NCBI GenBank assembly: GCA_016213405.1
Contig: JACRAM010000054.1
Span: forward strand, 1-64,000
Length of the DNA: 64,000 nt
Reading direction: 5' to 3'
Source: Bacteroidota bacterium
GTDB taxonomy: Bacteria > Bacteroidota > Bacteroidia > Palsa-948
Positions 9,085-62,439 of the stretch are shown here, piece by piece. The position numbers and the translations under genes were made by a program. Each line of letters starts with the position of its first letter. Position 1 is the first letter of the stretch. The notes under the pieces were generated by a model that made no database searches, was not told the origin of the DNA, and was given only the letters and a program-made list of their open reading frames with translations.

Positions 9085-9910
9085 AAGTCTCAAGTCCCAA
9101 ATTCCAAATTCCAAATTCCAAGGAATACATTTCCTTTCTTGGGACTTGGGACTTGCTACTTGGTGCTTTGGACTTCTCTTACTCTTCTCCCTTCAGGGTC
9201 GGGGTAATTCCATTGCTCCCACTGTTCTGCTGGACAGCGCCAACAGCGCCTACTCTAAAGGCAACTTTGAAAAAGCCGTGCAGTATTACGAAGGAATTGT
9301 TTCTCTCGGCTATGAATCACCCGAAGTTTATTTCAATCTCGGCAACGCGTATTATAAAACTGACAAAACAGGAATGAGCATTCTGAATTATGAGCGGGCG
9401 AAAAAACTTTCGCCTTATGATGAAGACATTGCTTTCAACCTGAAACTTGCCAGCCAGCGCACGCTTGACAAAATTGAACCAGCGCCAATACTTTTTCTTG
9501 AAGACTGGTGGAACAACCTCAAGAGCATGCACTCGGAAAAAACATGGGGCAACCGCAGCATCGTTTGCTTTGCGCTGTTCCTTTTCTTTCTGGGCGTGTT
9601 CATCACATCAGGCAGAACCTTCAACAAACAGTTCGGTTTCTGGCTGGCACTTGTGTTCTTTCTTTTTTCAACCATCACATTCTCCATTTCGCGGAGCCGG
9701 TATAAAGACATCACCGAAAAAGATTCAGCTGTCATACTTTCTTCTTCCACAGAAATCAAGAACGCCCCTGCCGAAAGCGGCACCAAACTTTTCATCCTGC
9801 ACGAAGGCACTAAAGTTTTTTCTTCTGAAACAAATGGCGATTGGGTGAAAGTGGAAGTTTCGTCTGATAAAGTGGGATGGGTGAAAAAATCGCAGATAGA
9901 GTTTATATAA
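9068..9910 (+). CDS. batE: BatE, TPR-SH3 membrane protein with a repeat-derived leader
   Basis: 280 residues. Residues 55-120 are TPR repeats (SANSAYSKGNFEKAVQYYEG), two transmembrane helices lie near 163-180 and 187-206, and a C-terminal SH3-like domain spans about 225-280. This is the standard BatE layout and completes the operon. The N-terminal 45 residues are odd. They are encoded by a palindromic element (9090-9178, words AAATTCC and GGGACTT) followed by part of a CCCTT/AGGG element, giving a W- and L-rich leader instead of an ordinary signal peptide. It may still direct export. The ATG used overlaps batD. Confidence 0.82.
   Translation: MKMQYRSLKSQIPNSKFQGIHFLSWDLGLATWCFGLLLLFSLQGRGNSIAPTVLLDSANSAYSKGNFEKAVQYYEGIVSLGYESPEVYFNLGNAYYKTDKTGMSILNYERAKKLSPYDEDIAFNLKLASQRTLDKIEPAPILFLEDWWNNLKSMHSEKTWGNRSIVCFALFLFFLGVFITSGRTFNKQFGFWLALVFFLFSTITFSISRSRYKDITEKDSAVILSSSTEIKNAPAESGTKLFILHEGTKVFSSETNGDWVKVEVSSDKVGWVKKSQIEFI
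9085..9203. repeat. Family A palindrome inside the batE leader
   Basis: The left arm is a tandem of AAATTCC words after AAGTCCC, and the right arm is CTTGGGACTTGGGACTT; they are complementary. A second GC-rich piece (CTCCCTTCAGGGTCGGGG) follows. Related family A copies are at 57612-57731 and 60283-60390. The open frame runs through the whole element. Confidence 0.7.
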
Positions 9911-9987
9911 AATTGTTGTATTGTTGTATTGCTATATTGTTAAAGACAACTGTTCAACAATATGTCAATAAAACAATTTAGCAATAG
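9911..9987. repeat. Intergenic TTGTTGTATTG word-repeat hairpin
   Basis: Tandem copies of TTGTTGTATTG at 9913-9942 face partly complementary CAACAATA/CAATAAAACAAT words at 9953-9980. It lies between batE and the phosphodiesterase and may act as a weak hairpin at the end of the Bat operon. There is no U-tract typical of an intrinsic terminator. Confidence 0.45.
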
Positions 9988-9993
9988 TTGCTG

Positions 9994-10518
9994 ATGACGA
10001 AGATTTTACTCCTCTCCGACACACATAATTTTCTTAACGAAAAAGTTTTTAAGTATGCCGAACCCTGCGACCAGATATGGCATGCGGGAGATATCGGCAC
10101 CGTTGCGGTTACCGATGCGCTGAAAAAAATAAAACCTCTGGTTGCCGTTTACGGAAACATTGACGGAATGGATGTGCGGAAAGAATTCCCCCTGCACCAG
10201 CGCTTTATGTGCGAACAGGTGGATGTGTGGATTACGCACATTGGCGGAAGCCCTGGCAGATATTCTCCGGAGGTAAAAAGAATTTTAGACACCACCAACC
10301 CCGTTGGACAAAAACCAATGTCCCACGGGGCAAGACTTTTCATCTGCGGGCACTCGCATATTTTAAAAGTGATGTTTGACAAAAAACATAACCTGCTTTA
10401 TATGAACCCGGGCGCGGCAGGCAACTACGGCTTGCACAAAGTAAAAACCCTTTTGCGCTTTTCCATTGCAGGAAAAGAAATAAAAGACCTTGAAGTGATT
10501 GAGATTGGGAAACTGTAA
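9994..10518 (+). CDS. YfcE/MJ0936-type metallophosphodiesterase
   Basis: 174 residues from ATG 9994; a TTG two codons upstream is less likely. Metal-binding motifs are in the standard order: LLSDTHN (DxH), WHAGDIG (GD), VYGNIDG (GN-D), and HGARLFICGHSHILK with the final NPGA. These mark the small bacterial phosphodiesterases active on model phosphodiesters with Mn or Ni. The natural substrate is unknown. It is cytosolic and lies 83 bp after batE on the same strand, separated by a repeat, so it is probably a separate unit. Confidence 0.88.
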   Translation: MTKILLLSDTHNFLNEKVFKYAEPCDQIWHAGDIGTVAVTDALKKIKPLVAVYGNIDGMDVRKEFPLHQRFMCEQVDVWITHIGGSPGRYSPEVKRILDTTNPVGQKPMSHGARLFICGHSHILKVMFDKKHNLLYMNPGAAGNYGLHKVKTLLRFSIAGKEIKDLEVIEIGKL

Positions 10519-10519
10519 A

Positions 10520-11135: not shown

Positions 11136-11244
11136 TTACAAAATTACAAAACTTTTGTACCGCCAAAGTCTATTTTCAACAAACATTGCCCTGCCTTGTT
11201 ATTAAGACTATATTTACCATTCACAAAATAAATTATATAATATC

Positions 11245-12385: not shown

Positions 12386-12388
12386 ATA

Positions 12389-13870: not shown

Positions 13871-13919
13871 AATACAATAGACAATATATCAAATAAGAAT
13901 TGTATATTAAAATTCATAA

Positions 13920-14090
13920 CAATCAGGGCTAAAGCCCACACTGTATTTTGCATTATTAGCCACGACCTTAAGGTCGTGGCAACTGAAAACCAAAGCACAA
14001 AAGGGCTTCAGCCCAACATAAACCCCGTAGGATATTTTACCCCGTAGGAAGAATTTCCAACGGGGTGAATCCAACGGGGTAAACTCTTAT
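13920..14090. repeat. Cluster of three palindrome families between T9SS genes
   Basis: Three interleaved elements: GGGCTAAAGCCC (13926-13937) with GGGCTTCAGCCC (about 14005-14015); CCACGACC-TTAA-GGTCGTGG (about 13961-13980); and CCCCGTAGGAT/ATCCAACGGGGT words (14023-14083). The same families recur at 25671-25711, 31040-31083 and 33521-33555. They may act as hairpin terminators or dispersed elements. No gene is present here. Confidence 0.7.
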
Positions 14091-14105
14091 TCGATATAAA
14101 CTCCA

Positions 14106-15950: not shown

Positions 15951-15963
15951 ATTGGAAGGGAAA

Positions 15964-16817: not shown

Positions 16818-18347
16818 ATGTTTGACATCATTGAACTAAACGACAAAGCTTTGAACGAACTCAAAGAGATTGCCGAAAAACTCAACATCCCGAATTTTAA
16901 CGCGATGAAGAAGCAAGACCTTATCTACAAAATTCTTGACTTTCAGGCAACCAACCCATCCAAAACGCCCGACAAAAAAGTGACGCAGCGCAGACCGGAT
17001 GACAAAAGACCTGCTTCTGATAAAGAAGAGGATAATTTCATTGATGAAAATAACGGAGACGACTCCCCTGCTTCTATCAAAGAGCCCGCGCGCACAGAGC
17101 AATCGTATCACGAAACGGAAACTTTTTCTCTGCCTGTTGACCCGGTGATAAATCCGAGCGATGCGAAGAATGAAAATTCTGACCAGACGCAGGAAGTACC
17201 GCGGCAGGACAGAAAACCTGAAATTAATTTTGACGGCATTGTGATTGGCGAAGGCGTATTGGAGATCATGCCTGATGGCTATGGTTTTTTGCGCTCTTCC
17301 GATTATCAGTATTTGAATTCTCCCGATGATGTGTATGTATCGCAGTCGCAGATCCGTTTGTTCGGACTAAAAACAGGCGATACGGTATCGGGCGACATTC
17401 GCCCACCGAAAGAAGGCGAAAAATATTTTCCGCTCATTAAAGTGGGAGCCATCAACGGTCGCGACCCATCGTATGTGCGCGACCGCGTTCCGTTTGATCA
17501 CCTCACGCCTCTTTTCCCTATAGAAAAATTCAAACTCACCCGCCCTAAAGAACAAAACATGTCTTTGCGCGTGGTGGATTTATTCACGCCCATAGGAAAA
17601 GGACAACGCGCTTTGATTGTCGCCCAGCCGAAAACAGGTAAAACCGTTCTGCTGAAAGATCTGGCAAACGCGATTTCAGAAAACCACCCTGAAGCATATC
17701 TCATCGTACTGCTGATTGACGAGCGCCCCGAAGAAGTTACTGATATGGCGCGAAGCGTTAACGCAGAAGTTATTTCTTCCACATTTGACGAACCGGCAGA
17801 GCGCCACGCGCGCATAGCAAATATTGTTTTAGAAAAAGCAAAACGCATGGTGGAGTGCGGACACGATGTGGTGATTCTTCTTGACTCTATCACACGCCTT
17901 GCCCGTGCCTACAACACACTTTCTCCTTCATCAGGAAAAGTTTTGTCGGGTGGTGTGGAGGCAACTGCTCTGCAAAAACCAAAACGCTTTTTTGGAGCTG
18001 CACGGAAAATTGAGAATGGCGGGTCGCTCACCATTCTTGCCACAGCACTCACAGAAACAGGTTCTAAAATGGATGATGTCATCTATGAGGAATTCAAAGG
18101 AACAGGAAACAGTGAAATGCAGCTGGACAGAAAACTTGCCAACAAACGAGTTTATCCTTCTATAGACATCACCGCATCGAGCACACGCAGAGACGATTTG
18201 CTGGTTGACAAAGAAACGCTTCAGCGCCTGTGGATACTGCGCAAGCACCTTGCCGATATGAATCCGCTTGAAGCCATGGAGTTCATCAAGGACAGAATGA
18301 AGAACACGGTGAGCAATGAGGAGTTTTTAGTTTCGATGAACAGCTAA
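16818..18347 (+). CDS. rho: Transcription termination factor Rho
   Basis: 509 residues. An N-terminal Rho_N helix bundle ([19 protein letters not shown], then [11 protein letters not shown]) is followed by a charged linker of about 85 residues that is longer than in E. coli and typical of Bacteroidota. The cold-shock-like RNA-binding domain carries [13 protein letters not shown], and the RecA-like motor has Walker A QPKTGKT and Walker [18 protein letters not shown]. The Q-loop and R-loop regions ([27 protein letters not shown]) are intact. It forms a hexameric helicase that ends transcription on untranslated RNA. Confidence 0.97.
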
Positions 18348-18349
18348 CC

Positions 18350-18385
18350 ATCTCCCCCTTGTAAAGGGGGACTAAGGGGGATTCC
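18350..18385. repeat. Family B hairpin after rho
   Basis: CTCCCCCTT-GTA-AAGGGGG forms a hairpin, followed by CTAAGGGGGATT. This is the GC-rich family B element also found inside several genes. It lies in the 38-bp gap between rho and DUF4199 and may double as a ribosome-binding purine tract for the TTG start at 18386. Confidence 0.65.
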
Positions 18386-18889: not shown

Positions 18890-18908
18890 CACGAATTCGT
18901 GCTAATTA
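18883..18908. terminator. 26-bp perfect palindrome covering two convergent stop codons
   Basis: The arms TAATTAGCACGAA and TTCGTGCTAATTA are exact complements. The TAG of DUF4199 (18887-18889) and the TAA of mpl (18906-18908) both lie in it. It could act as a bidirectional termination hairpin, although no U-tract follows. The neighbouring ATTCGTGTCAATTCGTGG at 18909-18926 belongs to the same word family and encodes the last residues of Mpl. Confidence 0.6.
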
Positions 18909-20294
18909 ATTCGTGTCAATTCGTGGAATTAGTGTCTTGAAATCCATTCCGTCAAAAGTTCCTGAACTCATCATGAGCAGATTTTTATTTTCCCATTTCT
19001 GCTTCAGCAGAAAGTCAAAAAGAGTTTTTGAATTTGTAAATACAGAAAATGAACTCCCTTCCCTTGGGGAAGGGTTGGGGATGGGCTTGAAAGATATTTT
19101 CACCTGCTCTTCTGTGATGGACTTTAGTTTCTTATGCTCTATCGTATGCGGATTGAAATAAACAACTGCTTCATCAGCAGCATCCATCGTTCCTGCATAC
19201 TCTTTCAGAAAATTTTCATTCAGACTGCTGAAGGTGTGCAGTTCAAGGCAGGCAATAAGTTTTCTATTCGGAAATTGTTTTTTCACTGCTTCAATCGTTG
19301 CTTTTACTTTCGATGGCGAATGAGCAAAGTCCTTGTAAAAAGCAAATGAATCATTCTTGACAATTAATTCCAATCTCTTTGCCGCACCTTTAAAGGAAGC
19401 AATGGCTTTATAAAAAATTTCATCGCTGATTCCGACTTGTCGGCAAACCAAACGAGCTCCGCTGATGTTCATCAGATTGTGTTCGCCATAAACCATCAGC
19501 GGAATTTCTTTGCCTTCATCTATTAAATAAGTGCTTCCATTTTCAATTTTATGTTTCGGTATTGAATAGGGATACAATCTGATATCTGCTCTTGCTTTAG
19601 AAATAAGTTTTTTTACTTCTTCATCTGTCTCGCAATAAACCAGTGCGCCAATCTGCTCGATGCAGTCAATGTATTTTTTAAACTGCTCCACATAACTTGC
19701 GTAAGTCGGAAAAACATTGATGTGATCCCATGCAATTCCGCTGAGGAGAGCCACATCGGGTTTGTAAAGAAGAAATTTTGGTCTGCGGTCAATCGGAGAG
19801 GCAAGATATTCATCGCCTTCAAACACCGCAATAGTGGCTGAGGCGGTAAGTTTTACCATTGTATCAAATCCTTCCACCTGCGCGCCAATGAGATAATCAA
19901 AATCTTTTCCGCATTGCTTCAGCACGTGAAGAATCATGGCAGTGATAGTGGTTTTGCCATGGCTCCCTCCTACTGCAATTCTGATTTTATCTTTTGTCTG
20001 CTCGTAAATATATTCCGGGTAGGAATAAATCCTCAGTCCGAGTTCCTGTGCTCGGAGAAGTTCAGGGTTATCAATCCGCGCGTGCATGCCGAGAATAACT
20101 GCATCCAGCTCTTCGGAAATTTTTTCAGGATGCCAGCCCATTTCTGCAGGAAGCAAGCCAAGTTTTTCAAGCCGCGTTTTTGACGGCTCAACAATTTCAT
20201 CATCTGAACCAGTGACCGTATAACCTTTCCTGTGAAGAGCAATCGCGAAATTGTGCATTACTGCGCCTCCGATTGAAATAAAGTGAACCCGCAT
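18906..20294 (-). CDS. mpl: Murein peptide ligase Mpl
   Basis: 462 residues, a Mur-ligase fold. The N-terminal Rossmann domain starts HFISIGGAVMHNFAIALHRKG, whose GGAVMHN-type loop separates Mpl from MurC. The ATP-binding loop is GGSHGKTTI, with the central motif FEGDEY and later HSPSK. The enzyme joins UDP-MurNAc to the recovered tripeptide L-Ala-gamma-D-Glu-mesoDAP, so the window's organism recycles its wall. Residues about 401-415 (PIPNPSPREGSS) are encoded by a family B palindrome and look like an insertion before the FTNSKTLFDFLL segment. The final IPRIDTN is encoded by another repeat. Confidence 0.93.
   Translation of the reverse strand: MRVHFISIGGAVMHNFAIALHRKGYTVTGSDDEIVEPSKTRLEKLGLLPAEMGWHPEKISEELDAVILGMHARIDNPELLRAQELGLRIYSYPEYIYEQTKDKIRIAVGGSHGKTTITAMILHVLKQCGKDFDYLIGAQVEGFDTMVKLTASATIAVFEGDEYLASPIDRRPKFLLYKPDVALLSGIAWDHINVFPTYASYVEQFKKYIDCIEQIGALVYCETDEEVKKLISKARADIRLYPYSIPKHKIENGSTYLIDEGKEIPLMVYGEHNLMNISGARLVCRQVGISDEIFYKAIASFKGAAKRLELIVKNDSFAFYKDFAHSPSKVKATIEAVKKQFPNRKLIACLELHTFSSLNENFLKEYAGTMDAADEAVVYFNPHTIEHKKLKSITEEQVKISFKPIPNPSPREGSSFSVFTNSKTLFDFLLKQKWENKNLLMMSSGTFDGMDFKTLIPRIDTN
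19048..19092. repeat. Family B palindrome in frame within mpl
   Basis: CTCCCTTCCCTTGGGGAAGG followed by GTTGGGGATGGG forms a GC-rich hairpin. It is read on the minus strand as PIPNPSPREGSS and keeps the frame. The surrounding C-terminal Mur domain aligns better without it. Confidence 0.7.
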
Positions 20295-25570: not shown

Positions 25571-25711
25571 ATTGAATAACGAACATTTGAACATTTGAAC
25601 TGAGAACATTCGAAGTGAATGTATTTTACTTCTGACTTCGTTATTCAAATGTTCTATTGTTCATTTTTTAGTTTACCCCGTTGGATAATTTTAATCCTAC
25701 GGGGTTTACCC
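25571..25711. repeat. Two palindromic elements after phaB
   Basis: The first (25571-25668) has arms ATTGAATAACGAA and TTCGTTATTCAAAT with internal ACATTTGA words; relatives are at 30785-30825 and 63525-63652. The second (25671-25711) is ACCCCGTTGGAT-AATTTT-AATCCTACGGGGT, the family found at 14023-14083 and 33521-33555. They fill the gap before the metallo-hydrolase. Confidence 0.7.
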
Positions 25712-25740: not shown

Positions 25741-26613
25741 ATGAAACTATATACCATTAATACAGGTTTCTTTAAACTTGACGGTGGCGCCATGTTTGGA
25801 GTTGTTCCTAAATCAATATGGACAAGAACCAATCCTGCCGATGAAAACAATATGATTAATATGGCAATGCGCGCACTGTTGGTTGAAGACGGAAATAAAC
25901 TTATCCTGATTGACAACGGCTGCGGCACAAAACAGGATGCAAAATTCTTTTCTTACTACTTTCTACACGGAGATGATACGCTGGAAAAATCTTTAGCGAA
26001 ACATGGATTTACTCCTGATGATATCACGGACGTTGTTCTTTCTCACCTTCACTTTGACCATTGCGGAGGAAGTGTGAAATGGAACAGCGACAGAACAAAA
26101 TTTGAACTCGCTTTTAAAAACGCAACTTACTGGAGTAATGAAAGACACTGGAATTGGGCGATGCATCCAAACAAAAGAGAAGGCGCAAGTTTCCTTAAAG
26201 AAAATATTTTACCTATTCAAGAAAGCGGTCACCTAAAATTTATTACACCTCCTTCTTCAGATGATGAACTTGCCTCCCTTCCCTTCGGGGAGGGTTGGGG
26301 TGAGGCACTGTTTTCCAACGGGCATACCGAAGCAATGATGCATCCTCACATTAAATATAAAGAGAAGACAATTGTTTATGTTGCCGATTTAATTCCTACC
26401 ACCGGACATATTCCTGTTCCTTATATAATGGGATACGATACTCGTCCTCTGTTAACATTAGACGAAAAAGAAAAATTCCTAAGCAAAGCCGCTACCGAAG
26501 AATATGTTTTATTCTTTGAGCATGATTCCAAACATGAATGCTGTACTGTTAAGACAACGGAGAAGGGTGTGAGAATGAAAGAAGCTTTTTCTCTTGCCGA
26601 ATGTTTCTCTTAG
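25741..26613 (+). CDS. MBL-fold metallo-hydrolase
   Basis: 290 residues. The zinc signature LSHLHFDHCGG (HxHxDH) is near residue 101-111, the third-histidine region is SNGHTEAM, the Asp is in VYVADLIPT, and the last His is in FFEHDSKH. This is a metallo-beta-lactamase fold of the lactonase/hydrolase type; the substrate is unknown. There is no signal peptide. Residues about 178-189 (ASLPFGEGWGEA) are encoded by a family B palindrome and separate the GHLKFI strand from the SNGHTEAM strand, so they look like an added surface loop. Confidence 0.87.
   Translation: MKLYTINTGFFKLDGGAMFGVVPKSIWTRTNPADENNMINMAMRALLVEDGNKLILIDNGCGTKQDAKFFSYYFLHGDDTLEKSLAKHGFTPDDITDVVLSHLHFDHCGGSVKWNSDRTKFELAFKNATYWSNERHWNWAMHPNKREGASFLKENILPIQESGHLKFITPPSSDDELASLPFGEGWGEALFSNGHTEAMMHPHIKYKEKTIVYVADLIPTTGHIPVPYIMGYDTRPLLTLDEKEKFLSKAATEEYVLFFEHDSKHECCTVKTTEKGVRMKEAFSLAECFS
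26272..26306. repeat. Family B palindrome in frame within the metallo-hydrolase
   Basis: CCTCCCTTCCC-TTCG-GGGAGGG followed by TTGGGGTGAGG. It forms a strong hairpin and is read as ASLPFGEGWGEA. It keeps the frame, and zinc ligands flank it on both sides. Confidence 0.72.
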
Positions 26614-31139: not shown

Positions 31140-31370
31140 AAGAAATGATATTCCTTGTGTAGGATAAACTATTCCTATTGAAAGAATTGTTATTCCTCCA
31201 CAAAGAATTCTTATTCTTCCACAAAGAATTGTTATTCTTCCACAAAGAATTCTTATTCTTCCACAAAGAATTGTTATTCTTCCACAAAGAATTGTTATTC
31301 TTCCACAAAGAATTGTTATTCTTCCACAAAGAATTGTTATTCCTTCATAAAGAATTGTTATTCTTCCACG
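31140..31370. repeat. 21-bp minisatellite, 11 units
   Basis: Eleven 21-bp units start with AAGAATTGTTATTC or close variants and end with TTCCACA. The middle seven are nearly identical and the outer ones are degenerate. There are no spacers, so it is not a CRISPR. Because 21 is a multiple of three, both strands stay open and can be read as heptads (KELLFFH or WKNNNSL), but neither looks like a real protein. It lies 54 bp past the end of the leftward gene at 31424-31789. A second 21-bp array is at 54749-54916. Confidence 0.85.
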
Positions 31371-33403: not shown

Positions 33404-33705
33404 CGTAAAATGGTTTTTACCCTGTGAAATTCTGTCTTACAGACAATTTCACTGGGTGAATGGTTAAACAAAAATAAACCTGCCCGTCCGGCAGGCGGGT
33501 GTATTACATCACGCCTGTTAAACCCCGTAGGATTGAAATTATCCAACGGGGTAAACTCAACTGCGTTTCGGAAACTTTTCTTAAAAATAAAAAGATATGC
33601 TCTCCTGAGCAACCTAAATAAAAAATCGAGAGAGAGAGAGAGAGAGAGAGAGAGTTATTCATTACATAAACGCTGGGTTATAATGAGCAAATATAGAAAC
33701 TATTT
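33404..33705. other. Intergenic stretch with hairpins and a GA microsatellite
   Basis: Contents in order: a hairpin with arms GTGAAATT-CTGTC and CAGAC-AATTTCAC (about 33423-33450); CCTGCC-CGTCC-GGCAGG (33479-33495); ACCCCGTAGGAT...ATCCAACGGGGT (33521-33553); and an uninterrupted GA repeat of 27 bases at 33628-33654. There is no gene. The GA tract lies about 350 bp upstream of the leftward small membrane gene's stop side and does not overlap a coding region. Confidence 0.65.
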
Positions 33706-45769: not shown

Positions 45770-48700
45770 TTACTTAATGCGCTTTCCGTTTTTGAAAAAA
45801 GCAACAAAAGCACCTGCATATCCCTGCGCTTTTAACTGGTCTTTGTACTCGGTCGCCTTCTCATATTCCCATGTTTGAAATTCACCGGCAGTATATTTAT
45901 AAACTCTATTTTCAATATACTCTTTTATATTTTTCGCTCCTTTGAATGTTGTGGCGTATTGCGATGCCGGGATTTGAGTTGAACTTGACATGATCTGTAT
46001 CCTGTAAATAACAGATGAAGAGGTATCTGCTGGTGAAACCAGAGGATTGGGATTGGGATTGGGATTAGGATTAGGATTAGGATTTGGAACAGGATTAGGA
46101 TTAGAGTTATTATTACTGTTTCCACTTATGTTCATCTGGCGTTTCTTTTCGCTGAAGATAAAATCAACCTGAAATTCTTTTGCGCCATCAAAACTTACGG
46201 TGTATTCCGGTTCCTGCAATGTAAATTGATCGCCAAAAATATTATTCACAGTTACCTTGTATTCTCCCGCCTCAGGCGCATAAAGGGTATAACTGCCATC
46301 ACTGGAGGTGAGGGCTGTAAAACTATTGCCGGCAGAATCGGTTGCAACTACCCTTATGTTCGCAACGGATGTCATGCCATTGGAAGAAAATTCATCTCTG
46401 AGCACAATGATGTGCCCGATTACCCTATAGCTTTGAGCAAAAGGGATGTAAAATGTGGTATCGCGAATAACCTTTGCCTTTTGCAATTGCCCGTTAATGT
46501 TGTATACGTCTTTCAGGTTAACGAGAGGATACACGCGCAAATCAAACTCTCCTTCAGGAATATGATAATACATTATCTGACCGAAATTATCTGTAACTAA
46601 TTCGATAGGGATGAATTGCCCGCGTTGCTTTACAGCTGTATTGGTCACGGAATCCATTTGCGATTCACGGTCAACAGAAATAACAATATCAGAAATTCCC
46701 TGCTCATTGTTATCCATTATTTTATTGCCGTTAATATCTTTAAAACATACCACTTTCAAATCATAATATTTTATTCCGGGCTGAGGTATGTCAAAAGTTT
46801 TTCTGAAGCCAAGGTTAAGGTAATATTTTCTGTTGTATATTTTTGCTCCTTCAGCGGTCACCCTGCTGGAGAAATACATGTTGTTGTCAACAAAGAATCT
46901 CCAGTCGTGATCAAAAAAGAAAGTGAAGCGGGCATTCAAAGTAATCCGTTCTGAATTGGCGAGCGCTTCATAATAATAGCTGTCATACGAAGACACGAGC
47001 ATTTTTTTATTGAAGTAATATTTCTCAAAATGCGGGGTGATTCGTATGGATTTGCTATAACTGTTGAAATAATAATAATCCTTCTGGGTATTCATATCAT
47101 GAGGTCCGTAGAAATAAAGAATATTAACTCCCCAATATTTCTGAATCATGTTCACTCCTGCATTGGCGTTAAAGAAAGAACTTTTTGAATAAGGTGATGG
47201 AGTTCCTATTGTAGAATCAATTGCAAACAAAATATAAGTATAACCGAAAGCAATAAAAGGGCTTATTAAACTGTGCGTGTTATTTTTATTGCTTAATCTG
47301 AAAGCAAGTTTAGGCGATATGCTTGAAAAGCGGGAAGTAATGCTATCGCCATTGTAATTGATTTTTAAATTTCTATGGTAGATGTGATCGAAAACAGGTC
47401 CTGCTGAAAGAGAAAGATGTGAATTCACTTTGTCCACTATTTCCGTTTTGTAATTTCCGGCAAGCAAATATTTTTCAGGATATAAGATTCCCTGGTTGTA
47501 GATGGTAGGATCCATCTGATTAATATTTATACCGCTGTTGAGATAGTATTTATTATTTATAAAATACTGTCCGTTGCCGTTGACAAGAATTCTTCCATTG
47601 GATTGAGAAAAATATTTTGATGTATAATTAACGTTTAATCGCGCGTGCGCTTTTTTAAGATTCATCCAATATTGAAGCTGTCCGCCATATCCATAGAAAG
47701 TTGCGCTGGGGTCTGCAGTAGTAATGAAATTGCCATTTGCATCAGTGAACGTTTGATTATCGTATACGTGGTTAGTTTGTGAAACTCCCAGCAAAAGGGC
47801 TACGCGGTGACCGGGTAAAAAGGGATAACTGGCGCGGGCTGACAAACCATAACTTTGAACTTTATTATAGTCATCAGAAATAAATGCTAAGGCAGAACTA
47901 AAATCTATAGACTTCCCCAGCATAATATCATGCTGAACATCGCCTGAATAAACCGGAGTTCCAACAGCCGCAGTGAATACACCGCTTATTTTCTGGTCAG
48001 GTTTTATTTTATAACTGCCGCCTATTCCCCGCCCACCGACACCTAACATACTTATTCCATACGAACCTATATCGCCCGCCATTGCCTGCCATTTATCTGC
48101 TGTGTAGATGGCGCGCATGCGCGTTCGCTGCCAAAGCGATTTTGCCAGATAAGGGTCATTCCCGTATCCCGACAGCGGAAGCCCCGGAATGCGAAGTGAG
48201 TAATTAAGTTTGTCGTCATTCTTAAATACCAGATCGCCATATGCGCCAAACACTATTCGCGGGTCAAATTCTGAAAGAAGATTGATGAGCTGAACATCTA
48301 TGGTGAGAGGAGAAAACCGCTCGGCAAGCACATTGTAATAATTGCTTTCAAGATATTTAAATAGTATGGATGTCTTTTTTACAAGAGTATCTGAAGTGGC
48401 AATTATTTTAACAGACATTTTTTGAAAATCTCTGTTCCACACGCCATTTTCTTCAAAAGGAATATATTTTACATGATACGTAAGGATGGTATCAAGGTGA
48501 GGTTTTAATTCAATGGATGTAAAATATTTATTTGCAAATGTGCCGTACATTTCCAATGAACTTCCGATGGTGAACTCCAGTTTCACCATCTCGCTGCCGT
48601 TTCCTTTATTCGACAACTTTACAGACATGGGAGCATATTCAGCATAGCGGTCAAAATAAATGGTTCGCTGAAGAGGGAAAACATCCCACCGTGTTTTTTT

Positions 48701-49237
48701 AGGGATGGTAACATAACATGCTTTACTTATCGAATACTGGTTTTTGTCAGAGAAAAGAGAACGAGTTGAAATCAACGTGGCGTTAATGATGTAGGACGTT
48801 CCGCCTGTGGAGGTTCTCGCCAGCGAAATCCGCATGGGTATATATTCGGTTTGTCCGGGATTTATGTTTACTGTTTTTTCGCTTTCAGAAATAAGTTTCC
48901 ATCCGTCAGGAACTGAAATTTTTACAACGCCTTGTACGGGCGCGGCATTTGTATTTGTTATTTTCAGAATATTAAAAAAGGTTGAATCGGTGCCGTGTTC
49001 GGTTTTTTCCTTCACAAACTCCATGAGCACAACGCTGTGGGAAGCCCCATCCCCCGCCTTCCCCGAAGGGGAAGGAGTTTCTCCCCCTTTGGGGGAGACG
49101 GAAGAGGGGGCTGCAGTATCTGCCGCAATAACCGCTGTTGAATCAGGTGCCTGAGCAAATAAATTATTATTTCTTACTAAAGAAAAAAATAAAAGAAAAG
49201 CCAAATAATAGTATATGTTGGTAGTAAATCTTTTCAC
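45770..49237 (-). CDS. Usher-like outer-membrane barrel protein with SPOR domain
   Basis: 1155 residues. A signal peptide ends near LFAQ, then a linker whose residues 41-64 come from a family B palindrome. Two Ig-like domains follow (about 65-165 NEW3-like, VKISVPDGWKLISESE; 170-295). The transmembrane barrel spans about 300-820 with many Tyr-rich strands. After it come an SdrD-B-like module (VCFKDINGNKIMDNNEQG), a carboxypeptidase-like sandwich, an NPNP linker and a SPOR domain (1072-1155, ending GYAGAFVAFFKNGKRIK). The order N-domain, large barrel, C-terminal sandwiches resembles fimbrial ushers, but I see no usher signature. It starts 11 bp after a pilin-like gene. Confidence 0.75.
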   Translation of the reverse strand: MKRFTTNIYYYLAFLLFFSLVRNNNLFAQAPDSTAVIAADTAAPSSVSPKGGETPSPSGKAGDGASHSVVLMEFVKEKTEHGTDSTFFNILKITNTNAAPVQGVVKISVPDGWKLISESEKTVNINPGQTEYIPMRISLARTSTGGTSYIINATLISTRSLFSDKNQYSISKACYVTIPKKTRWDVFPLQRTIYFDRYAEYAPMSVKLSNKGNGSEMVKLEFTIGSSLEMYGTFANKYFTSIELKPHLDTILTYHVKYIPFEENGVWNRDFQKMSVKIIATSDTLVKKTSILFKYLESNYYNVLAERFSPLTIDVQLINLLSEFDPRIVFGAYGDLVFKNDDKLNYSLRIPGLPLSGYGNDPYLAKSLWQRTRMRAIYTADKWQAMAGDIGSYGISMLGVGGRGIGGSYKIKPDQKISGVFTAAVGTPVYSGDVQHDIMLGKSIDFSSALAFISDDYNKVQSYGLSARASYPFLPGHRVALLLGVSQTNHVYDNQTFTDANGNFITTADPSATFYGYGGQLQYWMNLKKAHARLNVNYTSKYFSQSNGRILVNGNGQYFINNKYYLNSGININQMDPTIYNQGILYPEKYLLAGNYKTEIVDKVNSHLSLSAGPVFDHIYHRNLKINYNGDSITSRFSSISPKLAFRLSNKNNTHSLISPFIAFGYTYILFAIDSTIGTPSPYSKSSFFNANAGVNMIQKYWGVNILYFYGPHDMNTQKDYYYFNSYSKSIRITPHFEKYYFNKKMLVSSYDSYYYEALANSERITLNARFTFFFDHDWRFFVDNNMYFSSRVTAEGAKIYNRKYYLNLGFRKTFDIPQPGIKYYDLKVVCFKDINGNKIMDNNEQGISDIVISVDRESQMDSVTNTAVKQRGQFIPIELVTDNFGQIMYYHIPEGEFDLRVYPLVNLKDVYNINGQLQKAKVIRDTTFYIPFAQSYRVIGHIIVLRDEFSSNGMTSVANIRVVATDSAGNSFTALTSSDGSYTLYAPEAGEYKVTVNNIFGDQFTLQEPEYTVSFDGAKEFQVDFIFSEKKRQMNISGNSNNNSNPNPVPNPNPNPNPNPNPNPLVSPADTSSSVIYRIQIMSSSTQIPASQYATTFKGAKNIKEYIENRVYKYTAGEFQTWEYEKATEYKDQLKAQGYAGAFVAFFKNGKRIK
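46043..46106. repeat. GGGATT/GGATTA tandem coding the NP linker
   Basis: On the plus strand GGGATTGGGATTGGGATTAG and further TTAGGA words run for about 64 bases. On the coding strand they give NPNPNPNP. Four or more G-runs make a G-quadruplex possible on the non-coding strand. Confidence 0.7.
49048..49117. repeat. Family B palindromes in frame within the usher-like gene
   Basis: CCTTCCCCGAAGGGGAAGG and TCTCCCCCTTTGGGGGAGA lie side by side. They are read in the minus frame as SSVSPKGGETPSPSGKAGDG just after the signal peptide. The region is a low-complexity linker, so insertion here should be harmless. Confidence 0.75.
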
Positions 49238-54474: not shown

Positions 54475-54631
54475 CAATTTATTAGGACTTTTACGCAAAA
54501 TGTACAATTCTTGTATTTCTCTGCGGTTCTCAGCGTCATTTTTCTCTGTGAACTCTGCGGTTAAAATTTTTACCGCAGAGAACGCTGAGATTTTCGCAGA
54601 GAGCCGCAGAGTTTGCGTAAGTCCTATTTAT
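54475..54631. repeat. Composite palindrome of about 155 bp
   Basis: Outer arms TTATTAGGACTT...ACGCAAA and TTTGCGTAAGTCCTATTTA are complementary. Inside are CTCTGCGGTTCTCAGCGT against ACGCTGAGA...GAGCCGCAGAG, and the core CTCTGCGGT/ACCGCAGAG around AAAATTTTT. The whole could fold into one long cruciform. It lies in the gap between the leftward subunit gene and the rightward small protein; no ORF is present. The word family recurs at 71-103. Confidence 0.8.
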
Positions 54632-54748
54632 TTTGGTTCGGATTCCTGTAAAGTTAATGCGGAGAAAGGTCTCCTTTAGTAAAACGATTGTTTTTCATCA
54701 GAGTTTCATCCTTTTACTCAAAAAATCAATAATTTTTATCATTCCTAC

Positions 54749-56372: not shown

Positions 56373-56375
56373 AAA

Positions 56376-56403
56376 GCCCCACCCGACCTCCCCGAAGGGG
56401 AGG
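56376..56403. repeat. Family B palindrome between chaperone-like and MORN genes
   Basis: CCTCCCCGAAGGGGAGGGG in a 42-bp gap; a second member begins 42 bp later inside the MORN signal peptide. Both form strong hairpins. Confidence 0.7.
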
Positions 56404-56414
56404 GGAAAATCAAC

Positions 56415-57614
56415 ATGAAGAAAAAAATTCTGATACTCTTAATTTTCTCCCTTCCCTTCGGGAAGGGATGGGGATGGGCTTTTGCACAAACCCAGCAAAC
56501 CTTTTACGATGCCGATAAAAAAATAAAAAAAGAAATCTTTCATACAAAAAAAGAATCGGGAAAAACAATGAAGGATGGTTTGTATCAAATCTATTATGAG
56601 AATGGCAAACCCTGGCAGGAAGGAAATTACAAAGAAGATAAATTAGAAGGAGACTGGAAGATTTATTTTAACAACGGGCAGCTGAAACAAACCGTTCATT
56701 ATGAAAACGGACGGAGGCAGGGAAACTCAAAAATATATTATGACGATGGCATACTCTTTCAGGAACTGATTTACAAAGATGACAAGATGGATGGGAAAAA
56801 TATTTTTCATCACACCAACGGAAAAATCATGGAAGTGTCGGAATACAAAAACGACACGCTCAACGGAGAAAGCAGGGGCTTTAATGAAAACGGAAGCAGG
56901 TCATTCAACAGAATATATCTCAACGGCAAGCGCAACGGCAACTGCGAAGGGTTTTATGATAACGGATTGCAAAAAGAAAAATATACCTGCGTAAATGATT
57001 TGTATGAAGGAGAATTTATTTCGTATTACAAAGATTCGCTCAACGGAAAACAAAAAACCTGCACTTACAAAAACGGAAAGCTCAACGGAACCTTCACCGG
57101 ATATTATTCCAACGGCTCCATTGAAATGAAAGGAACCTACGCGAACGATTCCCTGCAGGGAGAATACACGCATTATTTCTCATCTAAAACTCAGGGAGTT
57201 CAGCAAGGAATACCTGTGGAAAAAGGTAATTATAAGAACAACTCGCGCACCGGATTATGGACATCGTGGTATCCGGATGGGAAGAATTACACTGCCGGAA
57301 ATTTTGTCAACGGAAAATATGAGGGCGAATGGAAAGTATATCACCCAAACGGAAATCTGAAACAAACGGGCGCTTACTCAAACGGAATTGAAAACGGTTT
57401 TTGGAAATACTACCATCCCAACGGCAACACGTATATGGAAGGAAAATATACTGATGGAAAACAAGAAGGACCCTGGAAAGTTTATTACGAAGATGGAAAA
57501 CTACTTGCCGATTACAACTGGCTGAACGGAATCCTTAATGGCAAACAAACTGCCTACGATAAAGAAGGAAAAGTGGCTGAAGTTAAAGTTTATGAAAACG
57601 GAGTGCAGAAATGA
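56415..57614 (+). CDS. MORN-repeat protein (YwqK-like)
   Basis: 399 residues. The signal peptide FSLPFGKGWGWAFAQ is encoded by a family B palindrome. From residue 50 on there are about 15 MORN_2-type units with the pattern GxWKxYYxNGxLKxxGxYxNGxxxG (examples YENGKPWQEGNYKEDKLEG, YHPNGNLKQTGAYSNGIENG). The C-terminus ends VYENGVQK. MORN_2 proteins in Bacteroidota are exported, and databases often label them YwqK-family antitoxin, but a toxin partner is not visible here. It follows the chaperone-like gene by 42 bp and may belong to the same unit. Confidence 0.85.
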   Translation: MKKKILILLIFSLPFGKGWGWAFAQTQQTFYDADKKIKKEIFHTKKESGKTMKDGLYQIYYENGKPWQEGNYKEDKLEGDWKIYFNNGQLKQTVHYENGRRQGNSKIYYDDGILFQELIYKDDKMDGKNIFHHTNGKIMEVSEYKNDTLNGESRGFNENGSRSFNRIYLNGKRNGNCEGFYDNGLQKEKYTCVNDLYEGEFISYYKDSLNGKQKTCTYKNGKLNGTFTGYYSNGSIEMKGTYANDSLQGEYTHYFSSKTQGVQQGIPVEKGNYKNNSRTGLWTSWYPDGKNYTAGNFVNGKYEGEWKVYHPNGNLKQTGAYSNGIENGFWKYYHPNGNTYMEGKYTDGKQEGPWKVYYEDGKLLADYNWLNGILNGKQTAYDKEGKVAEVKVYENGVQK

Positions 57615-57731
57615 AAGTCCCAAGCATCAAGTCCAAAGTCCCAAGCCCCAAGAAACAGCCATTGCATTTTCTTCGGCTGTTCCTTGAAACTTGGAATTTG
57701 GAATTTGGAACTTGAAATTTGGGATTTGGAA
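57612..57731. repeat. Family A palindrome between convergent genes
   Basis: AAGTCCCAAGC/AAGTCCAAAGTCCC words on the left pair with GGAATTTGGAACTT words on the right around AACAGCC...GGCTGTT. It fills the 118-bp gap between the MORN gene and the transferase and may terminate both. Confidence 0.75.
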
Positions 57732-57732
57732 C

Positions 57733-59157
57733 TTATTTCCCTCTCCCCTGCAGAATAATCATCACCGTATAAATAAGAATTTTAAAATCGAGGGCGAGAG
57801 ACATGTTCTCAATATAAATAATGTCGAACTTGAGGCGTTCAATCATCTGGTCAACATTTTCGGCATAGCCGTATTTCACCTGTCCCCACGAAGTAATGCC
57901 CGGGCGCACTTTGAGTAAATGTTTATAATGCGGGGCGCGTTTCACAATCTGGTCAATAAAATGCTGACGTTCAGGGCGAGGACCTACAATACTCATATCG
58001 CCCATCAGAACATTGTAAAACTGCGGAAGTTCATCTAATCTTGTTCTTCGCATAAACTTTCCGAACTTGGTGATGCGCGGGTCGTTGCTGCTGGAAAGCT
58101 GCGGACCGTTATGCTCCGCATTTACATACATGGAGCGGAATTTATGAATCATGAAAGGAATTCCATGCCGCCCGATGCGCTCATGACGGTAAATAATTTT
58201 TCCGGGCGAACCTATCCGCACCAAAATTGCCGTAATGATATATAGAGGACTGAAAACCGTGAGCACAATAAATGAAATCACAATATCAATCGTTCGTTTC
58301 AGTGTTTGCTGCCACACCGGCATGATGCTTCGCGAAATTTCTATAAGCGGTGTTCCCAGCACGTTGCTCATCTTCACCTGACCCGATAAAATATCATACA
58401 TATCAGGAATGATTTTTATGTTGGCGGGAGTTTCTTCCAGTTCTCCGATTATTTTCCCCAAACTCTCGTGCTCAGATGATTCAATGGCGATGATCACTTC
58501 CTCCACTTCTTTTTCCTTAATGCTTGCTTTAATACTGCTGATGTTTCCCAGGCAGGGCACTTGCTGCTGAAGCTTGTGCGAATAGCCGTTCTTATCATCT
58601 ACCATCACAAAGCCGATAAATTTATTGCCCGAAGATTTTTTCTGGCTTGTCATCTCGTTAAAAATTTTCCAGGCTCCTTCATTGCTTCCCACCAGCAATG
58701 TATTGAAGCTGATAATCCGGTTATGCACTTTGTAAACCGTATTGGTTACGAGTATGAACCGCATAAAGAATGTAATGGCAAAATGCAGAGTCAGGATAGC
58801 AAGGAAGGATTGATAATACGTTTTGTACGTAATAATTTCATCATCCAGAATGATGGTAAAGAAAATAATAATAACACCTGCAAGGGAAATGAAAAGCGTT
58901 TGCCCGAGCTCTTTCAATCGGGATTTTCTGAAAACATCCTTGTAGGCACCCGTGGATGCATAGAGCGCAAACCAGAAAATGGGAATGATAAACAGTCCCA
59001 GATAAAATTTCTTTCCAAACTCAATGGGAATATCCTGACCGAACTTAACACTCTCAATATAAATTTTCCGAAAAACATAAAAAGCCGCCCACGCTGTCGA
59101 TGCAGCAAAAAGATCCGCAGCAATGTGCTTGACTATTTGTACGGTTTTTCGGGGCAT
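57733..59157 (-). CDS. Polyprenyl-phosphate sugar phosphotransferase
   Basis: 474 residues. Four N-terminal helices, a CoA-binding-like middle domain (about 130-260), a fifth membrane segment (IVISFIVLTVFSPLYIITAIL), and the catalytic sugar-transferase domain with KFRSM, DELPQFYNVLMGDMSIVGPRPE and the closing WGQVKYGYAENVDQMIERLK. This WbaP/WcaJ-like family transfers a sugar-1-phosphate to undecaprenyl phosphate to start O-antigen or exopolysaccharide synthesis. No other polysaccharide genes are in the window. Confidence 0.92.
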   Translation of the reverse strand: MPRKTVQIVKHIAADLFAASTAWAAFYVFRKIYIESVKFGQDIPIEFGKKFYLGLFIIPIFWFALYASTGAYKDVFRKSRLKELGQTLFISLAGVIIIFFTIILDDEIITYKTYYQSFLAILTLHFAITFFMRFILVTNTVYKVHNRIISFNTLLVGSNEGAWKIFNEMTSQKKSSGNKFIGFVMVDDKNGYSHKLQQQVPCLGNISSIKASIKEKEVEEVIIAIESSEHESLGKIIGELEETPANIKIIPDMYDILSGQVKMSNVLGTPLIEISRSIMPVWQQTLKRTIDIVISFIVLTVFSPLYIITAILVRIGSPGKIIYRHERIGRHGIPFMIHKFRSMYVNAEHNGPQLSSSNDPRITKFGKFMRRTRLDELPQFYNVLMGDMSIVGPRPERQHFIDQIVKRAPHYKHLLKVRPGITSWGQVKYGYAENVDQMIERLKFDIIYIENMSLALDFKILIYTVMIILQGRGK

Positions 59158-59460
59158 GAAAAGAGCTGTTGGGAAACGATGGCTTTATTTCGATATTGTT
59201 AGGAAGGGTATGTGAGTTATTAAGATGTTATTAACAATTTAATTGATTATTAGAGTTTATTCCGATTAAGGATTGTATAATGAAATGGGTACAGATAACG
59301 GATTGTTACAGATGTACAGAAATACAAATCCATACAGATTCACATCAATTTGTATTTCTGTACATCTGTATGGTTTCGTTATCTGTACCATAATTTTCTA
59401 CTGTTTCTTATTCGGAATAGTATCTATTATATTCGAATATTAATCATCAACAGACAACAA
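59158..59460. repeat. Gene-free gap with a 107-bp palindrome
   Basis: Arms ATGGGTACAGATAACG and CGTTATCTGTACCAT (59285-59391) enclose TTACAGATGTACAGAAATAC and its complement. The structure is nearly perfect and intergenic. The remainder is AT-rich without ORFs or a clear promoter. Confidence 0.75.
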
Positions 59461-60399
59461 TCAATTGATAAGTTTCACATTATCTAAATAGAAATACGAG
59501 TTGGCGAGGTTCTCGTCTTTCAGCATTGAGAAGAAGATGCTGAACTTAGTTGAATTGGTTGCATTGGAAACTTCAGTACCGAGGTTTATATACACTTTAT
59601 TCCATCCTGTTGTAGGGCGCAGGGTAAGCGAAGTCCACTGAACATCTATCGTATTATTCGCAGTATACCCGATTATGCCGATATTGAATTCTGTGTTGCA
59701 GTTATAATCCAGTTCAAGAAAAACCGAGGCGCCTCCCTGCGGCAAAATATATTTGGCGCATGAAATTCCAATGTAAGAACTGCTTGTGATGGAGACCTTT
59801 CCGCTTCCAGTTCCTTCAAAGACATCAGACGGAGCTGTGGTAATAGTCATGATTGAATCTGCCGTTACTCCGCTATTACATACGCTGTGAGAGGAACCCT
59901 CAAAATCTTCGAGCCAGGTAAAATCAGCATTTGCTGCATAAGTTACCGTTGGGCTGATGGTTGTGATTTGTCCGCGAGTAAGAATTACGGTTTGAGAAAA
60001 AGTTTCATAGAAAGGATACTTAATGCGTGTTTCCGCAATACCATTTTCTTTAATACCCGCCCAGATTTTTATTTCATGGCTTCCTTCTGCCAACACGGGA
60101 ACCGTGCAGGGCAGTTCAAACGCGCCCACTTGCTGGTCGTCAATATAAATCCACGCGTCAAGGATTTTGTTTGAACTGCTTCCTTCCAGCAAATAATTGG
60201 TTGTGAAGTTTATTTTATCAATATGAATGTAGGATGGAATGGGCTCTTCCTTGTTGCACGCCACTCCGATTACACTAATAATAAGTCCCAAATTCCAAAT
60301 TCCAAATTCCAAATTCCAAGGGAACAGCCATCTAAAACTGATGATTCCTTTTTGGGACTTGGGACTTGGGGCTTGGAATTTTGGACTTTTATCTTTCAT
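59461..60399 (-). CDS. Lipoprotein with PCMD-like beta domain
   Basis: 312 residues. The start of the protein is unusual: about 35 residues encoded by a family A palindrome (WNLEFGIWNLGL) come before the lipobox VIGVAC, whose Cys would be lipidated. The mature part has an Ig-like N-domain (WIYIDDQQVGAFELPCTVPV) and a jelly-roll-like C-domain (DFEGSSHSVCN, ISCAKYILPQGGASVFLELD, SYFYLDNVKLIN), resembling Bacteroidota surface lipoproteins that bind glycans. A TTG inside the repeat (NLEFG) could be an alternative start. The substrate is unknown. Confidence 0.72.
   Translation of the reverse strand: MKDKSPKFQAPSPKSQKGIISFRWLFPWNLEFGIWNLGLIISVIGVACNKEEPIPSYIHIDKINFTTNYLLEGSSSNKILDAWIYIDDQQVGAFELPCTVPVLAEGSHEIKIWAGIKENGIAETRIKYPFYETFSQTVILTRGQITTISPTVTYAANADFTWLEDFEGSSHSVCNSGVTADSIMTITTAPSDVFEGTGSGKVSITSSSYIGISCAKYILPQGGASVFLELDYNCNTEFNIGIIGYTANNTIDVQWTSLTLRPTTGWNKVYINLGTEVSNATNSTKFSIFFSMLKDENLANSYFYLDNVKLIN
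60283..60390. repeat. Family A palindrome in the lipoprotein leader
   Basis: AAGTCCCAAATTCC and three more AAATTCC words pair with GGGACTTGGGACTTGG; the core AACAGCC is shared with 57612-57731. The element encodes residues about 4-42 of the lipoprotein, including its hydrophobic stretch. Confidence 0.75.
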
Positions 60400-61375
60400 T
60401 CGTAATTTTAAACTGCATCTTCTCCATCACCTTATAGGCCACATCCATCGCGCGGCAACCGTCTTCTGCCGTGATAGCAGTTTGTTTATCATTAATTATT
60501 GCATCCGCGAACGATTGCAATTCCATTTTTATTGCATTGCTCTCCTCCACTTTCGGGTTGTCAAAAAATATTTGCTTCATTCCTTTAGCGCCTAGGTCTA
60601 TCGTAAGGGCAAAAGGATCGCTGGGTTCCTGCTCAATCGTTTTCATTCTTATTATTTCTGTTTTCTTATCTAAAAAATCTACCGAAATATAGGCATCTCG
60701 CTGAAAGAATCTTGACTTGCGCATGCTCTTTAATGAAATCCTGCTGGCTGTAACGTTTGCCACTGCTCCATTGTCAAACTCAATGCGGGCATTGCAAATG
60801 TCAGGCGAATCGCTCACCACCGCCACTCCGCTCGCATTTATTTTTTTCACATTCGATTTCACCACACTCAATACAATATCTATATCATGAATCATTAAAT
60901 CAAGCACCACCGAAACATCTGTTCCGCGCGGATTGAACTGCGCCAGCCGGTGCGTTTCAATGAACATGGGATTGTCAAAATATTTCTGAACGGAAAGAAA
61001 AGCAGGGTTGAACCGCTCCACATGCCCTATCTGAACTTTTACATTTGCTTCCTCCTCCAACTTGCGGATTTCTTTCGCTTCATCCAGCGTGTTTGCAATC
61101 GGTTTCTCTATAAAAATATGTTTTGAGTTTTTCAGCGCCCTGACTGCAAACCGGTGATGCGTGATGGTGGGAGTTACAATATCAACAGCATCGCACAGGG
61201 AAATTAATTTATCGGCAGAATCAAAAGCAGGAACATTAAACTCTTTCTGAACTTTCTGAGATTTCTCTTTGTCAGAATCAAAAAAACCTATTACCTGAAA
61301 CTGCGGAATTTCTTTCAGAAGCTTCAGATGAATCTTGCCAAGATGACCGACTCCGAGCAATCCTATTTTAATCAT
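60389..61375 (-). CDS. Gfo/Idh/MocA family oxidoreductase
   Basis: 328 residues from ATG 61375; an upstream extension of 13 residues lies in a TACGAGG repeat and is rejected. The Rossmann motif GLLGVGHLGKIHL, the catalytic IEKPIANTLDEA and the C-terminal sheet (FDNGAVANVTASRISLKSMR) are typical. It oxidises or reduces a sugar-type substrate with NAD(P). The closest pattern is that of UDP-sugar dehydrogenases of the WlbA/WbpB kind, but that is not certain. Its stop overlaps the lipoprotein start region by 11 bp. Confidence 0.88.
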   Translation of the reverse strand: MIKIGLLGVGHLGKIHLKLLKEIPQFQVIGFFDSDKEKSQKVQKEFNVPAFDSADKLISLCDAVDIVTPTITHHRFAVRALKNSKHIFIEKPIANTLDEAKEIRKLEEEANVKVQIGHVERFNPAFLSVQKYFDNPMFIETHRLAQFNPRGTDVSVVLDLMIHDIDIVLSVVKSNVKKINASGVAVVSDSPDICNARIEFDNGAVANVTASRISLKSMRKSRFFQRDAYISVDFLDKKTEIIRMKTIEQEPSDPFALTIDLGAKGMKQIFFDNPKVEESNAIKMELQSFADAIINDKQTAITAEDGCRAMDVAYKVMEKMQFKITNER

Positions 61376-61731
61376 TTCAATATACAATAAAGAGGTACGA
61401 GGTACGATATACAAGGTACGAGGTTTGATATACTAGGTACGAAGTGCGAGGCAAATTCAGTTTTCATATTCCACTTATAGATTTCGTTCTTTGATTTTTG
61501 ATTCTCTTAAATTCTTTCTTGCCGTTTTCAGCGAAGCAACCGTAATTGAAAATTGCCTGAACCGTTTTATTAAATCCTGCCTCATCAGCTACTTTGTTCG
61601 TAAATCATAATTTATATCTCATACTTCGTAATAATTTTGCAAATGTAATATTAACCCTGTATTTTCGTGTTTCACATCCCGCACTTTGTATTTTATCCCT
61701 CGTACTTCGTACTTCTTACCTCGTACCTGCC
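61376..61731. repeat. Divergent intergenic region with TACGAGG/CCTCGTA arms
   Basis: 356 bp between divergent genes. Words GGTACGAGGTACGATATAC (61392-61410) and repeats up to 61450 face CCTCGTACTTCGTACTTC and TTACCTCGTACC (61699-61728). The arms are complementary but about 250 bp apart. The middle is AT-rich and must contain the promoters, which I could not locate with confidence. Confidence 0.6.
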
Positions 61732-62439
61732 ATGACTCCCAATCAACTCACTGATACCTATCTCCACCAGGGGCTTCGTTCCAAACTTGTAAAAGAATTG
61801 CGGGAGAAAGGAATTAAAGATGAAAATATTTTACACGCAATCGGAAAAATACCGCGCCATTTTTTCTTCAACACCACATTCATAAAATTCGCTTACGAAG
61901 ACAAAGCGTTTCCCATTGCCGCAGGGCAAACCATTTCGCAGCCCTACACCGTTGCGTTTCAAACCCAACTGCTGGAACTGAAGAAAGGAGAAAAAGTGAT
62001 GGAGATTGGAACCGGCAGCGGCTACCAGACAGCCGTGCTATTGGAAATGGGAGTAAAAGTTTTTACCATTGAACGCCAGAAAGAACTTTACGATAAAACA
62101 AAAATATCGCTGCCGGCTATGGGATATGCTCCAAAGTTTTTTTACGGTGACGGATACATAGGGCTTGAAGCGTTCGCACCGTTCGATAAAATTCTTGTCA
62201 CTGCCGGTGCTCCTTTTATTCCCGAACCGCTGAAACAGCAATTGAAAACCGGAGGGAGGCTGGTAATTCCTGTCGGGCAGGGCGATCTGCAGGAAATGAT
62301 TTTGATAGAGAAAAAAAGTCCCACCCCTGCCCTCCCCGTTAGGGAGGGAGAAAAAGATTCAGAAGGGGCTTTTGAATACAAACAAACAAAACACGGATTC
62401 TTTCGCTTTGTTCCATTGCTGGAAGAGAAAAATAAGTAA
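61732..62439 (+). CDS. pcm: Protein-L-isoaspartate O-methyltransferase
   Basis: 235 residues from ATG 61732; the upstream frame is repeat sequence. SAM-binding motif MEIGTGSGYQTAVLLEMG, the motif GDGYIGLEAFAPFDKILVTA and PVGQGDLQEMIL identify PCMT. It repairs isoaspartyl damage in proteins. Residues about 196-207 (PTPALPVREGEK) are encoded by a family B palindrome between EMILIEKKS and the final KHGFFRFVPLL strand, where relatives have a short loop. Confidence 0.92.
   Translation: MTPNQLTDTYLHQGLRSKLVKELREKGIKDENILHAIGKIPRHFFFNTTFIKFAYEDKAFPIAAGQTISQPYTVAFQTQLLELKKGEKVMEIGTGSGYQTAVLLEMGVKVFTIERQKELYDKTKISLPAMGYAPKFFYGDGYIGLEAFAPFDKILVTAGAPFIPEPLKQQLKTGGRLVIPVGQGDLQEMILIEKKSPTPALPVREGEKDSEGAFEYKQTKHGFFRFVPLLEEKNK
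62316..62354. repeat. Family B palindrome in frame within pcm
   Basis: CCCTCCCCGTTAGGGAGGG preceded by AGTCCCACCCCTG. It is read as PTPALPVREGEK near the C-terminus and keeps the frame. Confidence 0.72.

Follow-up and report, generated by a model that had tools for sequence, protein, structure and literature searches.

Probable mobile triplex-motif repeats lie in frame within genes, often in signal-peptide sequence, of a groundwater-type Bacteroidota genome

We analyzed a stretch of 64,000 nucleotides (the window; contig 54, bases 1-64000) from a genome described as groundwater-type Bacteroidota, which comprises 3.65 Mb in 127 contigs and is 95% complete. A sequence-only reading had noticed closely similar G/C-rich palindromes within conserved genes of this window and in the gaps between them, and had likened them to Rickettsia palindromic elements (RPE). 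Our analysis suggests that these repeats are probably mobile, non-autonomous, REPIN-like elements of the intrastrand triplex-motif kind, for which the names PIT (Hoyne and Maher), TM or TMECO (Holder et al. 2015) and boxC exist (PMC4666352), each consisting of a hairpin and a purine tail that mirrors one of its arms. The comparison set consisted of six congeners, G001-G006, and a wider scan covered 247 genomes of the class; on prfC, the closest named relative is an uncultured Bacteroidetes metagenome-assembled genome, nzgw125.

The hairpins proved to be real. With up to three mismatches, the CTCCCCTTCGGGGAG word has 11 matches in the window against 0.45 expected, and a structure finder requiring both a hairpin and a third strand returned eight elements there and none in five block-shuffled windows. 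The five intragenic peptides quoted earlier (mpl, MBL, prfC, pcm and the usher-like gene) are all present in the translations, and the gap copies at 18350 and 56376 were confirmed, although the signal-peptide copy in a MORN-repeat gene had been missed and the start coordinate, 9085, belongs to another repeat type (7-nt, CCAAATT) with no hairpin of this set. Genome-wide, the CTCCCC..GGGGAG hairpin occurs in 80 copies (control, 0). A strict generic triplex motif, a pattern that constrains mainly the pyrimidine/purine class and was controlled by its reversed form, has 107 copies in this genome and 31, 18, 7, 3, 2 and 2 in the six congeners; it is present in 32 of the 247 class genomes, and the reversed control is at zero in all of them. 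The main subfamily accounts for approximately 60 copies here and 0-18 per congener, and we propose that the element was amplified recently in this species. Near-identical copies are spread over dozens of contigs and occur in congeners assembled separately, which argues against a misassembly confined to one contig. G/C-rich hairpins are generally common in intergenic gaps; however, the empty shuffles, the near-identical dispersed copies and the in-frame sites lacking an insert in orthologues exclude chance G/C-rich tracts or transcription terminators within open reading frames (ORFs), a reading that no tool result favors and that we consider barely conceivable. No Rfam RNA family was found in the window.

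An alignment of approximately 85 genome copies revealed the hairpin followed by the purine tail, with copies that start with CTCCC or AGTCC, finish with ..GGGC(TT) and usually carry a TTN or TTNG loop. The tail is the mirror of the 3' (purine) arm and not a direct copy of it, with A-to-T optional at one position, as in the arm-tail pairs GGGGAGGG with GGGTGGGG, GGAGAGGG with GGGAGAGG, GGGGAGGA with AGGAGGGG, and GGAAGGGG with GGGGTAGG. Among asymmetric arm types, the mirror outperformed direct repetition 25:2, and the observed score was reached in 0 of 2000 permutations of tails among types. Likewise, among the matches listed, which come from many species, 63 distinct asymmetric sequences fitted the mirror better in 51 cases and the direct repeat in 2; the observed mirror value was reached in 0 of 5000 permutations, and direct repetition stood at chance level. 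A direct-repeat origin of the tail was thus rejected and, because the repeat is a mirror, simple template copying is ruled out as its origin. Changes in the tail track those in the arm across subfamilies and species. As A-to-T is allowed in a purine-motif triplex, this exchange and the mirror tail define the elements as intrastrand triplex motifs, in which two arms pair and the purine arm is mirrored by a third strand. Folding into a triplex would be in keeping with a closely related G/C-rich motif that forms a stable triplex in vitro, and with the E. coli triplex motif, whose folding was shown by circular dichroism and nuclear magnetic resonance (PMC4666352).

The same anatomy bears on the proposed kinship with Rickettsia. 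RPE share the behavior of these repeats, being short palindromes inserted in frame into many unrelated conserved genes and encoding 10-30 residues, and RPE-4 and RPE-6 have been described as CGTC REPs (PMC3733652). The elements studied here, however, are defined by a mirror third strand that falls outside that description, carry neither a CGTC nor a GTAG tag, reside in another phylum and show no link to Rickettsiales. Membership among the Rickettsia elements was therefore rejected; a place among these or the CGTC-REPs is highly improbable, and the Rickettsia elements serve as an analogy only.

The elements take two forms, a single end of approximately 33 nt and a two-ended unit of approximately 78 nt, in which the tails point outward around a short palindromic spacer. 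The prfC and usher-gene copies, previously taken for single hairpins, are two-ended pairs. Neighbors no more than 120 nt apart in the genome are oriented tails-out in 34 cases, tails-in in 1 and in tandem in 1, and all neighbor pairs in relatives are tails-out (10:0). Complete or nearly complete copies of the 78-bp unit, including its TTGCACGCGCAA-type spacer, are found at many sites in this genome and in G002, G003, G004 and G005; for the 66-bp core of the usher-gene pair, copies of 88-94% identity occur at five G003/G005 locations. Partners have like arms in 2 of 32 pairs, which, with the loci gathered around one subfamily, is only consistent with unlike-arm pairing. Certain pairs span long host spacers, start codons included, and in mtaB two tails-out motifs flank a conserved host helix.

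Comparison with the congeners revealed empty and filled sites. In pcm, the element is a clean insertion of 48 nt that is lacking in all six congeners. In meaB, which lies outside the window, a two-ended unit adds precisely 78 nt, and an exact empty site is present in G001 and in G006, where the right flank is 94% identical; target-site duplication, the mark of a miniature inverted-repeat element of a DDE transposase, is absent at this site, the one clean enough to judge. G005 carries a related unit in meaB, with changes in both the left arm and the tail that preserve the mirror (CCTTCCCC with CCCCATCC). The 32-residue two-ended insert of prfC occupies the position of a loop that is of the ordinary TSDNKEQxDKF type in all six congeners, and it is also missing from the other species measured; the span measures 87 residues in 42 of 45 sequences and 110 here, which argues against an inherited loop. 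The inserted residues are predicted to be disordered, as residues 476-499 form a low-confidence coil (AlphaFold pLDDT <50) in an otherwise folded model. The mpl gene shows a net gain of approximately 27 nt over congeners without the insert, and G005 has another insert in the same loop. The motif in the MBL-fold gene is absent in G001, G004 and G006 and present in G005, and G003 carries a pair of another subfamily in that loop. Collectively, these comparisons bear out the expectation of small non-autonomous palindromic elements, in frame at loop positions and absent from orthologues. A different palindromic insert with TCTCCGTTT-type words occupies loops of mpl in G005 (L183) and meaB in G004 (L301) that carry triplex motifs here, suggesting that these loops are shared insertion hot spots. 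In the mtaB loop of G004 (L308), a 7-nt-type repeat stands where this genome has a triplex motif.

The collected loci contain 139 distinct motifs, of which 92 fall within ORFs, 41 in intergenic DNA and 6 on ORF edges; intergenic location, a trait of the E. coli copies and not part of the definition, thus does not hold here. Most copies in the window, which was unselected for in-gene copies, are also within genes. In-gene copies use all six strand/phase combinations, and the main-family consensus can be read through in all six frames without meeting a stop codon. The proposal that the element has adapted to protein-coding targets was not upheld: approximately one third of the copies are intergenic, and frame-keeping is expected from selection on survivors. 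In genes of at least 140 codons, 25 of 48 same-strand copies fall within codons 5-38, in all three frames, compared with 4.8 expected; opposite-strand copies show no such crowding (4 versus 2.1 expected). About 15 of the 25 N-terminal copies are, by eye, plain signal peptides, with a hydrophobic stretch before the element and A-x-A-Q or similar after it, as in SLPLGKGWGW-ALAQ, LPSLWEGSGM-GIFAQ and PFPWGRVGDG-LFAQ, which represent the three frames. The T-richness of the DNA upstream of the element (39%) would be a simple explanation for the signal-peptide bias.

How the elements move was considered next to two possible routes. A Y1 HUH tyrosine transposase of the genome might recognize the folded single strand and insert it, as for the REP/REPIN of RAYT, a route that we regard as possible though rather doubtful. 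Eight Y1_Tnp (PF01797) genes are present in the genome; Y1 genes occur in 29 of 32 motif-positive and 144 of 215 other class genomes (Fisher p = 0.006), an association that may only mirror mobilome-rich genomes; the two-ended unit has no match in G001 (100% complete), the only congener lacking Y1; and the inverted dimers and missing target duplication at meaB would fit. Yet the GT[AG]G tag is absent, no transposase with matching ends was found, and the flanks of Y1 genes show no concentration of triplex motifs (3 in 8 loci, approximately background). Two Y1 genes have palindromes of their own, from other families. The CCACGACCTNNAGGTCGTGG palindrome lies on both sides of an IS200-like Y1 transposase (L034 1422 and 1958), with which it is a REPtron-like set, and has solo copies at window position 13960, L009 855, L030 2313 and L050 3639. 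At L038, a Y1 protein with a YIHQNP motif (1351-2040; TnpA-REP subclass 2.6-like) is accompanied by two perfect AT-rich palindromes, one inside the gene (1426-1460) and one just downstream (2059-2095). Identification of the elements as GTAG REPs of a local RAYT was rejected, since the tag is absent and such palindromes as occur at Y1 loci are CCACGACCTNNAGGTCGTGG or AT-rich.

Spread without a transposase, in which template switching or repair at replication forks captures the folded strand at pyrimidine- or T-rich tracts by microhomology, is a tentative option that we would likewise not favor. It would suit the replacement-type junctions in prfC, mpl and the MBL-fold gene, the resemblance of the mpl target tract TTTCTTCC to the element start CTCCCTTCC, and the local instability to which related E. 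coli motifs are tied, with no mobility gene found (PMC4666352). By contrast, the precise 78-bp insertion in meaB and the dispersal of the full two-ended unit with its conserved spacer look enzymatic. A phage or plasmid vector was rejected, as viral contigs held no exact match to the main subfamily and plasmids none to the 78-bp unit.

The reading of these repeats as mobile triplex motifs would entail the following model. On one strand, the pyrimidine arm would pair with the purine arm, and the mirror purine tail would fold back to form a purine-motif triple helix. Insertion would favor T-rich tracts, leaving the target unduplicated, as at the only site resolved precisely, and would thereby often strike signal-peptide coding sequence. 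In-gene copies would persist if they fit in length and frame and if a Pro/Gly/Ser-rich peptide is tolerated by the host loop or signal peptide. We infer that the triplex matters for movement and that the route is single-stranded. A more speculative extension, which we think unlikely, is that the triple helix itself is the recognized transposition end; the elements would then form a single-stranded class distinct from the tetranucleotide-guided REP/IS200 ends, and by recurrently targeting T-rich signal-peptide sequence they would keep rewriting export signals in three frames.

Several points weigh against the reading as mobile triplex motifs. Triplex formation by these elements is judged from sequence, and in vivo footprinting in E. 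coli did not support stable triplex formation (PMC4666352). Movement is deduced from comparison between species and not from strain polymorphism. The clean presence/absence envisaged earlier is seen at pcm and meaB, but in prfC, mpl and the MBL-fold gene a few host codons have given way to the insert. Because certain pairs bracket host DNA (mtaB; gene starts), pairing has more than one origin, and not every pair is one inserted unit. In addition, loci for the element set were collected around one subfamily, and ORF calling was simple, by length, leaving start codons uncertain.

The copies in the window are listed in Table 1; genes were named through Pfam (Mur ligase for mpl, MBL-fold hydrolase, RF3, PCMT and MORN protein).

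Table 1 Triplex motifs and two-ended pairs in the window
Feature	Coordinates	Strand	Remarks
Triplex motif, gap after gene 16818-18347	18353-18382	+	TCCCCCTT-GTA-AAGGGGGA-CTA-AGGGGGAT; congener alignments end at 18347, before the motif
Triplex motif in mpl (18906-20294, -)	19054-19088	+	Read PIPNPSPREG
Triplex motif in MBL-fold hydrolase gene (25741-26613)	26274-26308	+	Read SLPFGEGWGEA
Two-ended insert in prfC (34048-35724, -)	34210-34305		Residues 474-505; left motif 34210-34235 (-), spacer, right motif 34273-34300 (+)
Two-ended pair in usher-like gene (45770-49237, -)	49044-49111		Left -, right +
Intergenic triplex motif upstream of MORN gene	56377-56403	-	Tails-out pair with 56447
Triplex motif in signal peptide of MORN-repeat gene (56415-57614)	56447-56481	+	MKKKILILLIF-SLPFGKGWGW-AFAQ; congener alignments start just past the motif
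Triplex motif in pcm (61594-62439)	62318-62350	-	Read PTPALPVREGEK

Other repeats are present alongside these elements. Degenerate 7-nt repeats of the CCAAATT/AAGTCCC type, dispersed in the genome, occur in the window at 9085-9175, where much of a TPR/SH3 protein's N-terminus is read from them, and at 57615-57734, 60283-60388 and 61392-61451. A second dispersed palindrome family, ACCCCGTTGGATAATTTTAATCCTACGGGGT, lies at 14039-14080, 25667-25708 and 33519-33560, with further copies at L001 902, L009 917, L036 398, L051 706 and L078 2270. The window also contains a 187-bp element with a long imperfect palindrome (59247-59433; palindrome 59288-59389) that has 98% identical copies elsewhere in the genome, a repeat of approximately 153 bp (54481-54633) that recurs on contig 36 with 97% identity and has additional copies, and nine copies of a 21-bp tandem repeat (31181-31369; 93% matches).

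The sequence-only reading knew of no named equivalent in Bacteroidota; PIT, TM and boxC are, however, named, and in-frame REP insertions have been reported in several phyla (PMC3733652) and in tnpA-REP genes of Bacteroidetes and Cyanobacteria (PMC6006769). With PIT, TM and boxC, the elements share the hairpin with a purine third strand (class II), G/C-richness, multiple copies, one commonly mismatched triplet and inverted pairs of two different types, as type A in E. coli always accompanies type B. The E. coli triplex motifs number 23 copies, are always intergenic and were not found to have a mobile association (PMC4666352), whereas the 107 strict copies here form many subfamilies, with in-frame insertions, a signal-peptide bias and presence/absence between congeners. 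REP/REPIN with RAYT (PMC3733652, PMC6006769) are similar in being short palindromes with inverted dimers, some in frame in genes, in the missing target duplication at the resolved site and in the Y1 transposases of the genome; they differ in that the elements here have a triplex third strand in place of the tetranucleotide foot tag, and any palindromes found at Y1 genes are of other families. The structural kind, inverted pairing and the in-frame insertion of other small palindromes are thus already known. The new aspect is an in-frame, signal-peptide-biased form of repeats whose E. coli representatives have been described as intergenic; the open literature that we searched contained no report of in-frame triplex motifs in genes, of their preference for signal peptides, of a two-ended triplex unit in dispersed copies or of clearly empty sites.

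To our knowledge, neither a function nor a route of spreading has been assigned to intrastrand triplex repeats in the two decades for which they have been known. A single genus with empty and filled sites, in-frame insertions and three covarying strands makes it possible to test whether they move and whether the third strand is required. For annotation, PSPxLPxGKG or SLPFGKGWGWA segments should be treated with caution as repeat-derived. More broadly, these elements represent a route by which conserved enzymes and signal peptides may gain peptide segments from short non-coding repeats.

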